From Desulfovibrio sp. (GTDB lineage: Bacteria; Desulfobacterota; Desulfovibrionia; Desulfovibrionales; Desulfovibrionaceae), in NCBI GenBank assembly GCA_004796465.1, contig QZKZ01000093.1:1-34996 (forward strand): DNA of 34,996 nucleotides. The letters are read 5' to 3'. The translations under genes and the position numbers were made by a program. This document shows positions 17,493 to 21,883 of the stretch, in pieces; position 1 is the first letter of the stretch, and every line of letters begins with the position of its first letter. Under the pieces are notes generated by a model. That model worked only from the letters and a program-made list of their open reading frames with translations, did no database searches and was not told the origin of the DNA.

Positions 17493-17633
17493 ATGACCTT
17501 GTCCAAGCGTGAAAAACCCTTTGACGGGGTGGGCGAAATCGAACACTATCGTTTCACCATTTTCCACCAGTGTAGGCAGCCTTTCTTGGCAAGGATTCCA
17601 GGTGAACCCACTGACCCTCTTCTTTTTTCGTGA
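17493..17633 (+). other. Probable out-of-frame N-terminus of the histidine kinase
   Basis: From ATG 17493 an open frame gives 46 residues starting MTLSKREKPFDGVGEIEHYR and stops at TGA 17631-17633. Its composition is more protein-like than the Ser/Thr-rich start of the kinase frame over the same DNA. Just before the stop is a T6 run (17623-17628). Dropping one T joins this frame to the kinase frame as PLLF|REVQDH. This points to a real frameshift mutation, a homopolymer sequencing error or frameshifting. No good Shine-Dalgarno precedes 17493. Confidence 0.45.
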
Positions 17634-19824
17634 AGTCCAGGATCATGCTGTCCCCCCCCTTGGTCACGAAACTCCATATTTGAGCCACATCGCTTCCATT
17701 CTGGCTCCCATATACCAATGCGATCCCGGGGATGTGGCCGCAAGGCTGGCCTTGGACCTTGAACGTGGCCCCAATCCCGGCGCATTGGCCAAAGCCGAAG
17801 CTGAACGCGCCCAGGGGGAGCATCACCCCTACACGCTGGTCCTCAACGACGCCAAAGGGCGAGATGTGCCCCTCCTCATAACGCCCCGCCCAGTGCTGTC
17901 CGAGGACAACGCTCCTCAAACCGTGGCCGGGATCACTCCCTTGGACCGGATTCCTTTTCCTGATCACGATGAAGCTGCCGGCCACGGCAACCGTTTTTTC
18001 GAAGTCGCGGCTGCCAGCAGGATAGGAACCTGGGAATGGGACGTGGTGAGTGGACGAATGCAGCTCAGCTCAGGCCTGAAGGCCATGCTGGGGTATGGTG
18101 AGGAAGACATTGAGGACCATGTGGACGAATGGGAGCAACTTATCCATGCCGAAGACAGGGAACCGGTACGTCAAGCAGTCAAGGACCATTTTGCGGGGCG
18201 TTCGCCCTTTTTCGAAGTCTCTCACCGTATGTTGCACAAGGACGGCGGCATAGTCTGGCTGCAAGCACGCGGCATGGGCCAGCGGGACAGTTCGGGAAAG
18301 GTTGTCCGCATGCTGGGCATGGACATGGACATCACACAAAGCAAACTTGCGGAACAAGCCGTGGATGACGAGCGCCAAAGGCTGTTCACCCTGCTAGACC
18401 GCTTGCCAGCTTTTGTCTGCCTCATAGCGCCGGACTATTCCATTCCATTCGCCAACCGCCAGTTTCGCGAGGAGTTCGGGAACCCCGGCCCCATGCCCTG
18501 CTATTCCATTATGAATGGCCGCAAAGCACCGTGTAAGATATGCCCCACCTTTGAAGTCTTTGAGACGCAAAGCTTGTCTTCCTGGGAGTGGCAATGCAAC
18601 CGCACTCAAAAAACCTACCAGGTATATGACTACCCTTTTCAGGACCTGGACGGTTCCCCCCTGGTCCTGGAGTTGGGCATGGACGTCACGCAAAAGACCC
18701 GCGCCCAGGAACTGCTCAAGGAGAGCGAGGAACGTTACCGCTCCATCACCGACAACCTGCCCCTGGGGATTGCGGTCATTGACCAGACCCTGCGCATCAC
18801 CGCAGCCAATCCCTTGCTGACTCAATGGTTTCCCGAAGTGGATTTTGCGTCAATGCCGCACTGTTCCCAGATCTTTGCTCCCCACCCGGACACAGCCGAC
18901 GTTTTTGACTGCGGCGGAGAAAAGATATTTTCCCAAGCCGCCATCACCGAGCACTTATTTGAAACCGGCGTCCCATGGGATGATCCCGGCTCGCGGCGAT
19001 CTTTCAGAGTGACCGCTTGCCCCATGTTCACGGAAAACGGGGACGTGGGCTCCATCATCGGCCTGGTGGAGGACGTGACGGAAAAGCTGATGGTGGAGGA
19101 GAAGCTCAAGCGGGCGGAACGCGTGGAGGCCCTCGGCACCCTGGCCGGAGGAATTGCCCATGAAATCAACCAACCCCTCAACGCCTTGCAGCTCTATGTG
19201 AGCGGCCTGGAAATGATGCTGGATTCCCATGGCGATGTGGAACCGGAGACCCTACGCATCCGGTTGGGATGGGTGTTACGGGAATCAGCCAAAATCCGGG
19301 ACATTATCTCCCACATGCGGTCCTTGGTCCAGCAGCAGGACAGCAGGCCTCCGAGCCCCACTGATCTCAATCACGTGGTGGAAAAGGCGCTCACTCTCAT
19401 GGGCACGCAAATGCGCAACCACGGCATTGAGCTCACCCTGGAACTCGATCCTGGAGCTCCATTGGTCAGAGCCAATCCCGTGCAATTGGAGCAAGTTGTA
19501 CTCAACTTGGCGATTAATGCGATCCAGGCCTTTGCCACCCGCAATTCCATGGAATCACTCGATGTCTTGGACAAGCGAGTGCTCATCGCCACCCGCACGG
19601 GCGAGGAATGGACCACACTACTGGTGCGGGACAACGGTCCGGGCCTGGGCCAAGACGAAGACCGGATTTTTGATCCGTTTTACAGCACCAAGGAATCGGG
19701 CAGGGCCATGGGGCTGGGGCTGTCCATCGTGCATTCGTTTCTCAAGGCCTGGGGGGGAGAAATCACCGGGCGCAACAATGAACTGGGCGGCGCCGACTTC
19801 TCGGTGCGCTTGGTTCCGGCCTGA
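17509..19824 (+). CDS. Cytoplasmic PAS-domain sensor histidine kinase (NtrB-like)
   Basis: The product autophosphorylates and should pass phosphate to the regulator encoded 14 bases later. Counting from GTG 17509 (771 residues), PAS domains lie at about 165-280, 285-405 and 408-525. The second carries a cysteine cluster, C331, C342 and C345 (PCKICP). The HisKA dimerisation helix has H551 in AGGIAHEINQPLNAL. The HATPase domain has N-box NLAINAIQAF, RDNGPGLG, FDPFYSTKESG and GLGLSIVHSF. There are no membrane segments or signal peptide, so the signal is cytoplasmic. The start is unclear: GTG 17509 and GTG 17602 (AAGGA upstream) are possible. The natural start may be ATG 17493 in another frame, joined by a one-base shift at a T-run near 17625. 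Confidence 0.88.
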   Translation: MKNPLTGWAKSNTIVSPFSTSVGSLSWQGFQVNPLTLFFFREVQDHAVPPLGHETPYLSHIASILAPIYQCDPGDVAARLALDLERGPNPGALAKAEAERAQGEHHPYTLVLNDAKGRDVPLLITPRPVLSEDNAPQTVAGITPLDRIPFPDHDEAAGHGNRFFEVAAASRIGTWEWDVVSGRMQLSSGLKAMLGYGEEDIEDHVDEWEQLIHAEDREPVRQAVKDHFAGRSPFFEVSHRMLHKDGGIVWLQARGMGQRDSSGKVVRMLGMDMDITQSKLAEQAVDDERQRLFTLLDRLPAFVCLIAPDYSIPFANRQFREEFGNPGPMPCYSIMNGRKAPCKICPTFEVFETQSLSSWEWQCNRTQKTYQVYDYPFQDLDGSPLVLELGMDVTQKTRAQELLKESEERYRSITDNLPLGIAVIDQTLRITAANPLLTQWFPEVDFASMPHCSQIFAPHPDTADVFDCGGEKIFSQAAITEHLFETGVPWDDPGSRRSFRVTACPMFTENGDVGSIIGLVEDVTEKLMVEEKLKRAERVEALGTLAGGIAHEINQPLNALQLYVSGLEMMLDSHGDVEPETLRIRLGWVLRESAKIRDIISHMRSLVQQQDSRPPSPTDLNHVVEKALTLMGTQMRNHGIELTLELDPGAPLVRANPVQLEQVVLNLAINAIQAFATRNSMESLDVLDKRVLIATRTGEEWTTLLVRDNGPGLGQDEDRIFDPFYSTKESGRAMGLGLSIVHSFLKAWGGEITGRNNELGGADFSVRLVPA

Positions 19825-19838
19825 GCTGAGGGGGAAAC

Positions 19839-21287
19839 ATGCGGATTCTTATTGTTGACGACAATGCCAACAGTTTGCAAGGCCTCAACGTGGTGCTTGA
19901 AGACTTGGGCCATGAAACCACGGCCATGCAGGATCCGGTCAAGGCCTGGAAACTCAGCCAGCAAACCCACTATCCCCTGATCATCACGGACATCCGCATG
20001 CCCGTCCTCAATGGCCTGGAACTATTGGGCCGCATCAAGGGATCCCAATATTCCAGCGATTGCGACGTGGTGATCGTCACGGGCCACGGCGATATGGAGA
20101 CCGCCATCGAAGCCTTGCGCAAGGGCGCATACGACTACCTCAACAAGCCCATTAACGCCCGCGAGTTGGCCGCTGTTGTGGAACGTTGCGCCGAGCACCA
20201 AGCTCTGATCATGGAGAACAAGCAGTTCCGGGACAGGTTCGCGGCCAAGGTTGACGAAGCGGCCAGGGACGTCAAGCAAGACCTGGAGCAAGTCCGGGAA
20301 CGCTTGCGGGAAGTGGCGGGAATCGGTTCGGTCATTGCCCAGTCCCCAGCCATGACCGCTCTTCTCCAAGAAACCAAGATGTACCACAACGATCCGGACG
20401 TGCCCGTGCTCATTGAAGGGGAAACCGGCACGGGCAAGGAGATCCTGGCCAGGCTGGTGCACTTTGGCGACGGGGGCACGGATTCGCCCTTTGTGGCCAT
20501 CAACTGCTCCGCCATACCCGAACGGTTGTTTGAAAGCGAACTCATGGGCCATGAACCCGGCGCGTATACGGGCAGCACCCGCCGCGGCGCGCCCGGCAAA
20601 TTGGAGATCGCGGCCAGCGGCACCCTGTTCCTGGACGAAATCGCGGAAATGCCTCTGGACATGCAGCCCAAGCTCTTGCGTGTCCTGGAGGACAAGACCT
20701 TTTACAGGGTTGGCGGTGTGAAAAAGCGCAGATTCCTCGCCAGGGTAATCTGCGCCGCCAACCGGGACTTGGAAACCTTGGTGGACAAGGGGCTGTTTCG
20801 CCGCGACCTGTTTCACAGGCTCAATGTGGGGCGCATGTTCATTCCGCCCTTACGGGAACGGACCGAGGACATTGCCCCCCTTGCCGAGCATTTTCTGGTC
20901 CGCGAAGCGCAAAAAAAGAAAAAGGGGTTTACCTCCTTGTCCCAGGCGGCCATTGACCTGTTCCTTTCCCTGCCCTGGCCCGGCAATGTCCGGGAACTGG
21001 AGAACGCCATTGAAAGGGCCGTGCTGACTTGCGACGGCCAAACCCTGCACCCCGCCCACATGGGCTTTCTCTTGGCCAAAACATCTTCAGCACAGGAACT
21101 GCCACAACCCCCTCCCTTTTCCTTGGAAACGATGCAGCTTCCTGAATCGAGCTTGCCCCTGGAAAGCCTGACCCAGGCTATTGTACGGAGGGCTCTGAAC
21201 AAATTTGGCGGGAACAAGACCAAGACTGCAAAATACCTCGGAATATCCCGCTATGCCTTGCATCGGCGATTGGAAAAGAAGGAGTGA
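19839..21287 (+). CDS. NtrC-family sigma-54-dependent response regulator
   Basis: The 482-residue activator has a receiver domain with acidic pair D7/D8, phospho-acceptor D51 (TDIRMP), T81 and K103. A helical linker leads to an AAA+ domain with Walker A GETGTGKE near 194 and Walker B GTLFLDEIAEMP. The sigma-54 contact loop is GAYTGS at 241-246 instead of GAFTGA, and the sensor region is WPGNVRELENAIERA. The C-terminal Fis-type helix-turn-helix (about 448-482) reads GNKTKTAKYLGISRYALHRR. GAGGGGGA precedes the ATG. It should remodel sigma-54 polymerase at promoters; one near-consensus sigma-54 site lies 149 bases after its stop. Confidence 0.95.
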   Translation: MRILIVDDNANSLQGLNVVLEDLGHETTAMQDPVKAWKLSQQTHYPLIITDIRMPVLNGLELLGRIKGSQYSSDCDVVIVTGHGDMETAIEALRKGAYDYLNKPINARELAAVVERCAEHQALIMENKQFRDRFAAKVDEAARDVKQDLEQVRERLREVAGIGSVIAQSPAMTALLQETKMYHNDPDVPVLIEGETGTGKEILARLVHFGDGGTDSPFVAINCSAIPERLFESELMGHEPGAYTGSTRRGAPGKLEIAASGTLFLDEIAEMPLDMQPKLLRVLEDKTFYRVGGVKKRRFLARVICAANRDLETLVDKGLFRRDLFHRLNVGRMFIPPLRERTEDIAPLAEHFLVREAQKKKKGFTSLSQAAIDLFLSLPWPGNVRELENAIERAVLTCDGQTLHPAHMGFLLAKTSSAQELPQPPPFSLETMQLPESSLPLESLTQAIVRRALNKFGGNKTKTAKYLGISRYALHRRLEKKE

Positions 21288-21306
21288 TGTTCGACTTCGC
21301 CCTTTT

Positions 21307-21320
21307 GTGCGATTCCGCAC
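21307..21320. promoter_or_regulatory. Inverted repeat, candidate enhancer site for the sigma-54 activator
   Basis: GTGCG-ATTC-CGCAC is a perfect 5+5 dyad, centred about 149 bases before the predicted start point at 21463. This is a normal distance for an NtrC-type upstream activator site. Its proximity to the regulator stop and a few following T residues leave a weak terminator as the alternative. Confidence 0.4.
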
Positions 21321-21436
21321 GTTCGTTTTCGCCCACATCCCCCTCTTCCCATTATCCTCAGTGAAGGCGGCCCCACCTTCCTCGCTCAACAGCCTAATAT
21401 TCCAAGCTTTAATTACTTCTCAGTGAAGAGTGTCTC

Positions 21437-21451
21437 CGGCACGGGATTTGC
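21437..21451 (+). promoter_or_regulatory. Sigma-54 (-24/-12) promoter
   Basis: CGGCACGGGATTTGC matches TGGCACGNNNNTTGC at every defined position except the first. The invariant GG (21438-21439) and GC (21450-21451) have the exact 12-base offset required. Transcription would start near 21463 on the plus strand. It follows a gene for a sigma-54 activator and precedes the poly-C hairpin array. Confidence 0.75.
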
Positions 21452-21532
21452 GATAGAAACGGTGTTTGAACGTGGGGGTTCCTTATCCCCACCTAATGTT
21501 CTTTTCATATTACTGCCAGGAAACGGGGCAGC

Positions 21533-21564
21533 TTCCGTAGTTTCCCCCCCCCCACACTACGGAA
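21533..21564 (+). repeat. Poly-C-loop hairpin H1
   Basis: A perfect 9-bp stem pairs TTCCGTAGT with ACTACGGAA. The 14-base loop is TT followed by ten C and AC. Confidence 0.85.
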
Positions 21565-21598
21565 CATCCCCCACGCCCCGTCCCTATGCGATCGTCTT

Positions 21599-21633
21599 GG
21601 CCGGAGGGTTACCCCCCCCCCAACCCTCCGGCC
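21599..21633 (+). repeat. Poly-C-loop hairpin H2
   Basis: A perfect 12-bp stem pairs GGCCGGAGGGTT with AACCCTCCGGCC. The 11-base loop is A followed by ten C. The 5' arm itself contains a GGAGG sequence. Confidence 0.9.
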
Positions 21634-21646
21634 AGATGAATCGCAC

Positions 21647-21683
21647 TGGAGATTCGGCTACCCCCCCCCCGCCTGAATCTCCA
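21647..21683 (+). repeat. Poly-C-loop hairpin H3
   Basis: TGGAGATTC pairs with GAATCTCCA, extended by GGC/GCC with one bulged T. The loop is TA followed by ten C. Confidence 0.85.
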
Positions 21684-21695
21684 CACCCTAAGAAA

Positions 21696-21735
21696 GGTCT
21701 CCGCCCCTGGATACCCCCCCTCCGGGGGCGGAACC
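21696..21735 (+). repeat. Poly-C-loop hairpin H4
   Basis: A stem of about 15 pairs (one bulged C, one G-U) closes a loop of TA followed by seven C. Confidence 0.85.
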
Positions 21736-21778
21736 TCTTCTTCCCCTCCTCAAACCGTTCAACCACTACACGGGAATA

Positions 21779-21813
21779 TCCGGACTTCCCATTGCCTGGG
21801 CCCGGCTTTTTTT
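21779..21813 (+). terminator. Terminator-like end of the hairpin array
   Basis: An imperfect stem (CCGG with CCGG outside, CCC with GGG inside) is followed by C and seven T (21807-21813). It lies 70 bases before the next ATG. The T-run is convincing and the stem moderate. Confidence 0.55.
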
Positions 21814-21883
21814 CTACATATGCTGAGGAAACTGATTAAAAAGAACTGCCCTCATCCCAACCCACAATGTGGAGGACTTGGCC

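Follow-up and report, generated by a model that had tools for sequence, protein, structure and literature searches.

The window, a stretch of 34,996 nucleotides of Desulfovibrio sp. DNA analysed at its full length, almost certainly contains a small regulatory RNA gene of the Dv_sRNA2 type, whose product of about 350 nt carries four hairpins with C7-C10 loops. As read from the DNA, the locus comprises genes for a kinase and an NtrC-type regulator, followed by operator palindromes, a sigma-54 promoter and a conserved RNA structure. The array design was found in 27 genomes from 8 genera (designated g1, g9, g11, g15, g17, g19, g21 and g39). This defines an RNA family that lacks an entry in Rfam 15 and extends over eight or more sulfate-reducing genera, and it provides the structure, promoter, operator and phylogenetic range of an RNA that so far had no more than an annotation in a model sulfate reducer.

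Each of the four C runs forms the loop of a stable hairpin, and all four stems differ in sequence (Table 1). The starts of consecutive runs are 68, 49 and 53 nt apart. A preliminary description of this DNA had proposed four hairpins with C10, C10, C10 and C7 loops, which is confirmed by both the sequence and the predicted fold: the folding energy of positions 21440-21820 is -153.4 kcal/mol, compared with -111.0 +/- 4.8 kcal/mol for 100 dinucleotide shuffles of the same segment (z = -8.8). The loops were also described as identical, which is correct for the poly-C present in all four, but not for the loop ends (TTC10AC, AC10, TAC10 and TAC7). C7 runs by themselves are not in excess across the window (17 matches versus 20 expected), and the unusual feature is the concentration of C runs in loops rather than their frequency. 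Beyond the array, TAC9 does not occur again in the 3.85-Mb genome. The T7 run reported to follow the array is present at 21807-21813 and is a possible 3' end of the RNA. However, a strong terminator stem was not found immediately 5' of it, and the position of the 3' end is therefore uncertain. A predicted 'terminator' at 21306 was rejected, as it corresponds to an operator palindrome.

Table 1. Features of the C-loop RNA locus (window coordinates).
Feature	Position	Strand	Description and basis
Sensor histidine kinase	17509..19821	+	PAS domains, HisKA, HATPase_c; Pfam, hydropathy, orthologs
NtrC-family response regulator	19839..21284	+	Receiver, sigma-54 AAA+, Fis HTH; rare GAYTGS loop; Pfam, sequence
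Putative activator operators	21289..21334	+	GTTCGACTTCGCCC 21289-21302, GTGCGATTCCGCAC 21307-21320, GTTCGTTTTCGCCC 21321-21334
Sigma-54 promoter	21437..21452	+	CGGCACGGGATTTGCG; -24 GG, -12 GC; predicted start ~21463
Small RNA	21463..21813	+	Fold z -8.8, conserved architecture; 3' end tentative, either past hairpin 4 or at T7
5' hairpin without poly-C loop, ahead of array	21472..21492	+	GTGGGGGT-TCCTT-ATCCCCAC; folding
C-loop hairpin 1	21518..21585	+	Loop TTC10AC (21542-21555), C10 at 21544-21553; inner 9-bp stem plus outer stem; folding
C-loop hairpin 2	21587..21645	+	Loop AC10 (21611-21621), C10 at 21612-21621; 24-nt arms; folding
C-loop hairpin 3	21647..21683	+	Loop TAC10 (21659-21670), C10 at 21661-21670; folding
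C-loop hairpin 4	21690..21742	+	Loop TAC7 (21712-21720), C7 at 21714-21720; 22-nt arms; folding

The RNA starts at approximately 21463, downstream of and co-oriented with the regulator gene that ends at 21287. The array had been noted to lie beside a sigma-54 activator; this is borne out, and control by that activator is indicated by the promoter, the operators and the literature. Three putative operators, palindromic or half-palindromic and of the form GTKCG-N4-CGCMC, lie between regulator and array, and GTGCG-N4-CGCAC palindromes or close variants occupy the same place 3' of the regulator stop codon in the relatives inspected. Combined with the promoter, the operator pattern is specific to this regulon. 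The CGGCACGGGATTTGCG element is the top-scoring sigma-54 site on both strands of the window and is found at the same position in relatives. The proposal of a small RNA is thus upheld by fold, promoter and conserved architecture. Genes for an ADP-ribosylglycohydrolase and a lytic transglycosylase (Pfam) are located 3' of the array. Upstream of the promoter, a perfect 10-bp direct repeat, CTCAGTGAAG, is present at 21357-21366 and 21419-21428. Hydropathy analysis of the kinase did not identify a transmembrane segment. Residues 331-345 in the PAS region of this enzyme contain the Cys motif CYSIMNGRKAPCKIC (C-x10-PC-x2-C), which is found in many but not all orthologs; the soluble kinase could be a redox or metal sensor.

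An RNA in this genomic position has been reported previously. Rajeev et al. (2011) identified Dv_sRNA2, an RNA downstream of the gene for the D. vulgaris regulator DVU0679 and expressed according to tiling arrays, as a target of this regulator, and proposed the same in D. vulgaris Miyazaki and D. desulfuricans G20 (PMC3333781). Binding of DVU0679 at the locus of this RNA, directly downstream of its gene, was observed in vitro (PMC3333781, PMC4641369). Kazakov et al. (2015) list DVU0679 with a GAYTGS loop and an ncRNA target (PMC4641369); GAYTGS is one of eight variants among 37 D. vulgaris enhancer-binding proteins (EBPs), and among the entries covered DVU0679 is the only one to carry it (PMC4641369, Table 1). 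GAYTGS is present in the window regulator and in 15 of the 16 loci scanned, and all array-bearing regulator orthologs share this loop with the exception of genus g9, where it reads GAFTGS. The window regulator is therefore likely the DVU0679 ortholog. Both Dv_sRNA2 and the window RNA lie directly 3' of, and co-oriented with, an NtrC-type regulator with a GAYTGS loop; on the basis of regulator type and gene position, the array is most likely a Dv_sRNA2 homolog. Membership of this type was taken to include a sigma-54 promoter and a putative regulator operator ahead of the RNA, and both are found in the window. In contrast to the present description, the mentions of Dv_sRNA2 in these two papers give no structure, C loops or function (PMC3333781, PMC4641369). 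The C-loop array and the extent of the family appear undescribed in the literature searched, which left out most subscription papers. The window had 0 matches to the Rfam 15 covariance models, while in five relatives the sole match was an FMN riboswitch that lies outside the array. The suggestion that the small RNA is new thus holds in that no Rfam family covers it, but not in that the target of this regulator, Dv_sRNA2, had already been reported in D. vulgaris Hildenborough.

A BLAST search of 38 relatives with the entire array returned no match because the stems diverge too fast. Relatives were instead reached via orthologs of the kinase and regulator, which lead to the orthologous intergenic regions. 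It was found that 14 of the first 20 loci contain C6-C10 runs, three or four times and about 60 nt apart, mostly preceded by a sigma-54 promoter at a fixed position (weaker in two g11 loci). A second ortholog set contributed members of g21, g15 and g9, and 20 relatives have the combination of promoter, operators and array 3' of the orthologous regulator. A search of the genome contigs with the regulator as query yielded unrelated NtrC proteins only. We also searched 285 family genomes, Desulfovibrio ferrophilus included, for the combined operator and promoter pattern GTGCGN4CGCAC-N96-126-YGGCAYN6TGC. This gave 22 places in 18 genomes, whereas the reversed control gave 2. With few exceptions the matches precede a C-loop RNA, including new g19 and g17 members, genera in which the regulator is not adjacent to the RNA, and AT-rich and tandem-copy versions of the RNA; three hits, in G055, G188 and, from the class-level search, G087, are either apparently unrelated or unassigned. 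At class level, the same pattern found nothing outside the family (348 genomes, the same count as for the order), and the family carrying the array is consistent with Desulfovibrionaceae, one of its genomes being identified as Desulfovibrio ferrophilus by a plasmid with 100% identity; a second plasmid gave no match. Searches based on the C runs were less productive: pairs of TAC6 failed to catch relatives within the family, as most loops start with TC or AC, and an order-wide search for three C runs at set spacing returned mostly homopolymer assembly junk. Very long poly-C tracts occur in several draft family genomes (G044, G057, G268, G285 and others); these are probably sequencing or assembly junk and call for caution in homopolymer searches.

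A comparison across genera reveals unrelated stems, while the loops remain (U/A)C5-C10. The preliminary description had argued from the window that the C loops persist on differing stems, and the 27 genomes bear this out; loss of stem pairing or of the C runs was not seen among the relatives compared. Among nine g21 relatives, 18 of 44 consensus pairs are altered on both sides with pairing kept, indicating covariation. In 17 representative RNAs, 53 of the 72 runs of C5 or longer lie inside hairpin loops, compared with 8.3 +/- 2.8 expected when the structure is rotated against the sequence (2000 trials, maximum 21). A simpler local fold, requiring a loop on a stem of 6 bp or longer, gives the same picture, with 52/69 array runs versus 21/65 other C6+ runs from the same loci (p = 8e-7). 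Usually three to five C loops are present per RNA; g17 RNAs carry one or two, and in g19 the final terminator-like hairpin itself bears a C loop (CTTCGGTCCCCCCTCCGAAGGCTTTTTT). In the AT-rich genome of a g17 member (L178), the C5 loop is kept (GTCCCCCTAAATA). A G-quadruplex or i-motif is disfavoured as the selected feature, because these AT-rich RNAs still keep the C5 loop, as one single run. That the loop is kept as a C homopolymer on ever-changing stems points to one defined binding activity.

Two readings would deny a separate regulatory RNA. The C homopolymers could have arisen by chance, through base composition, or by misassembly, and these draft genomes do contain poly-C tracts elsewhere that are clearly junk. 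However, independent genomes from eight genera, some of them single-contig, share the design and its position, and the loop placement is far beyond chance; conservation already refutes this reading, to which we attach practically no weight. The exact run lengths in the window are provisional. It is also very unlikely that the array is a coding gene or the leader of the downstream ADP-ribosylglycohydrolase gene, notwithstanding that a 138-codon frame (21423-21839) is open across it and that it lies between two co-oriented genes. C-run lengths differ by 1-3 nt among relatives, which would break any reading frame, and the 138-codon frame has no Pfam match; it was rejected as coding on these grounds. 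A leader role is at odds with the different 3' neighbours elsewhere, where g11 has a transglycosylase-like gene and g39 an FMN riboswitch, and with tandem copies that possess their own promoters.

For the function of the RNA, we lean slightly towards a small RNA gene under the adjacent two-component system, with C-loop seeds that would lower the translation of several mRNAs. The soluble PAS kinase would sense a signal and phosphorylate the regulator, which would then bind the GTGCG-N4-CGCAC sites and fire the sigma-54 promoter; the DVU0679 data are supportive of this step. The stable RNA would expose several redundant unpaired (U/A)C5-10 seeds, and these may pair with G-rich stretches at the translation starts of several mRNAs and reduce their translation, as do the alpha-r14/NfeR1 loops. 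Pairing of the C loops with G-rich starts of several mRNAs, proposed by analogy, is about evenly balanced. Masking of G-rich ribosome-binding sites had been put forward from the outset, but a genome-wide count lends it no support: the ratio of GGGGGG-N2-10-ATG to its reversed control is 1.1-3.4 where the RNA is present and 1.9-4.2 in the remaining genomes, in a crude count that takes in all G-runs and that a few specific targets would escape. The ratios are no higher in RNA-bearing genomes, and there is therefore no sign of coevolution with G-rich starts. In the AT-rich genome G016, the G5 start-site ratio is only 1.3 fold. The loops are furthermore pure C, whereas CCUCC is the best fit to the Shine-Dalgarno sequence, which counts against antisense action. 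A narrower antisense role, directed for the most part at a single mRNA or a small number of them, above all the system's own kinase/regulator mRNA as negative feedback (as in NfeR1-ntrB and Qrr-luxO), with the array serving dosage, is improbable. The window regulator start site (19808-19841, GAGGGGGAAACATG) does contain GAGGGGG, a G5 run able to pair with the C loops, and feedback of this kind has precedents among similar RNAs (PMC10746234). However, a G5 run was not found at the start sites of 14 orthologous regulators; it is present in the window only, and autoregulation via this site was rejected.

A less probable but serious alternative to antisense seeds is a protein sponge, in which identical C loops on unrelated stems would titrate a binder of single-stranded oligo-C. 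Candidates are Rho, which favours C-rich RNA at its primary site, or some KH or cold-shock-type protein, with CsrB/RsmZ-CsrA/RsmA and CrcZ-Hfq as models. We know of no dedicated oligo-C-binding regulator in these bacteria, which speaks against it, as do the g17 RNAs with only one or two C loops and the fact that Rho sites are usually long and unstructured rather than short loops. In its favour, the RNAs usually have three to five loop copies, g9 has as many as three of the RNA genes in tandem, and the loop is kept while stems change. Run length varies freely from C5 to C10, as expected of binding sites rather than of a defined duplex, and a G-rich start-site signal is missing. The sigma-54/two-component control resembles that of CrcZ (PMC9308961), and the Rho primary site recognises long C-rich RNA (PMC11018607). 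Homopolymeric C of free length in many copies fits a protein ligand at least as well as pairing. More specifically, and more tentatively, the two-component system might induce the RNA as a decoy: its poly-C loops would trap an RNA-binding protein specific for C, either Rho or a poly(C)-binding protein that has so far escaped recognition, and the RNA would act as a global post-transcriptional or termination switch. We regard this as rather unlikely; if true, the switch would be of a type for which bacteria offer no known example.

The array can be compared with several known RNAs. CsrB/RsmZ RNAs, which are under two-component control, consist of many hairpins whose unrelated stems all display the same short loop motif, GGA, bound by CsrA. 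These sponges share the hairpin array design, but with a GGA loop for CsrA as opposed to C5-10 here. The CcsR 'cuckoo' RNAs have C-rich loops. In Rhodobacter, CcsR1-4 are tandem RNAs transcribed together with a small upstream ORF (PMC10253847), and here likewise tandem RNA genes occur in g9/g17 and a degenerate receiver ORF precedes the array in g11/g15. The two differ in promoter (RpoH versus sigma-54), ORF (DUF1127 versus receiver-like in g11/g15) and loops (CCUCCUCCC versus C only), and a DUF1127 ORF, taken as a mark of CcsR membership, was not found ahead of the window array. The alpha-r14 RNAs present identical CCUCCUCCC loops on three hairpins with divergent stems, redundant seeds that silence mRNAs, and block ribosome-binding sites (PMC10746234). 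Alpha-r14/NfeR1 of Sinorhizobium meliloti thus shares with the array several hairpins that display one unpaired C-rich motif on unrelated stems. However, its motif is CCUCCUCCC rather than homopolymeric C, and three CCUCCUCCC hairpins are not present in the window; it also differs in bacterial class, promoter type and regulators, and no sequence relationship was shown. The Pseudomonas CrcZ and NrsZ RNAs are likewise activated by sigma-54 and two-component systems, with NrsZ encoded directly 3' of ntrC (PMC9308961). Their motifs differ from the C loops, as CrcZ sequesters Hfq/Crc and the NrsZ motif is ACAGGCAG, and a C-loop array is not described for them in that review (PMC9308961).

Some genera depart from the single-gene arrangement. 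Tandem C-loop RNA genes occur in g9 and g17, every copy with its own operator and sigma-54 promoter (L132, reverse complement, at 1618, 1926 and 2243, hence three promoters in this g9 locus; L131 at 1612 and 1931; also L178). In g11 and g15, a degenerate receiver-like ORF follows the sigma-54 promoter and precedes the C-hairpin array (in regulator orientation, L040 3509-3907, L041 3674-4072, L129 1627-1980 and L130 1630-1974), and the RNA may therefore be the 3' part of a longer mRNA in these genera. One of these ORFs gave a Response_reg match at 1.6e-6, below the Pfam cut-off, and the others had no match. In g39, an FMN riboswitch (RF00050; L045 3942-4102) lies 3' of the C-loop RNA. Between hairpins 2 and 3 of the g21 loci L053 and L042, a single-stranded ACCAACCTATCT is nearly invariant despite the varying stems, and is a possible second seed.
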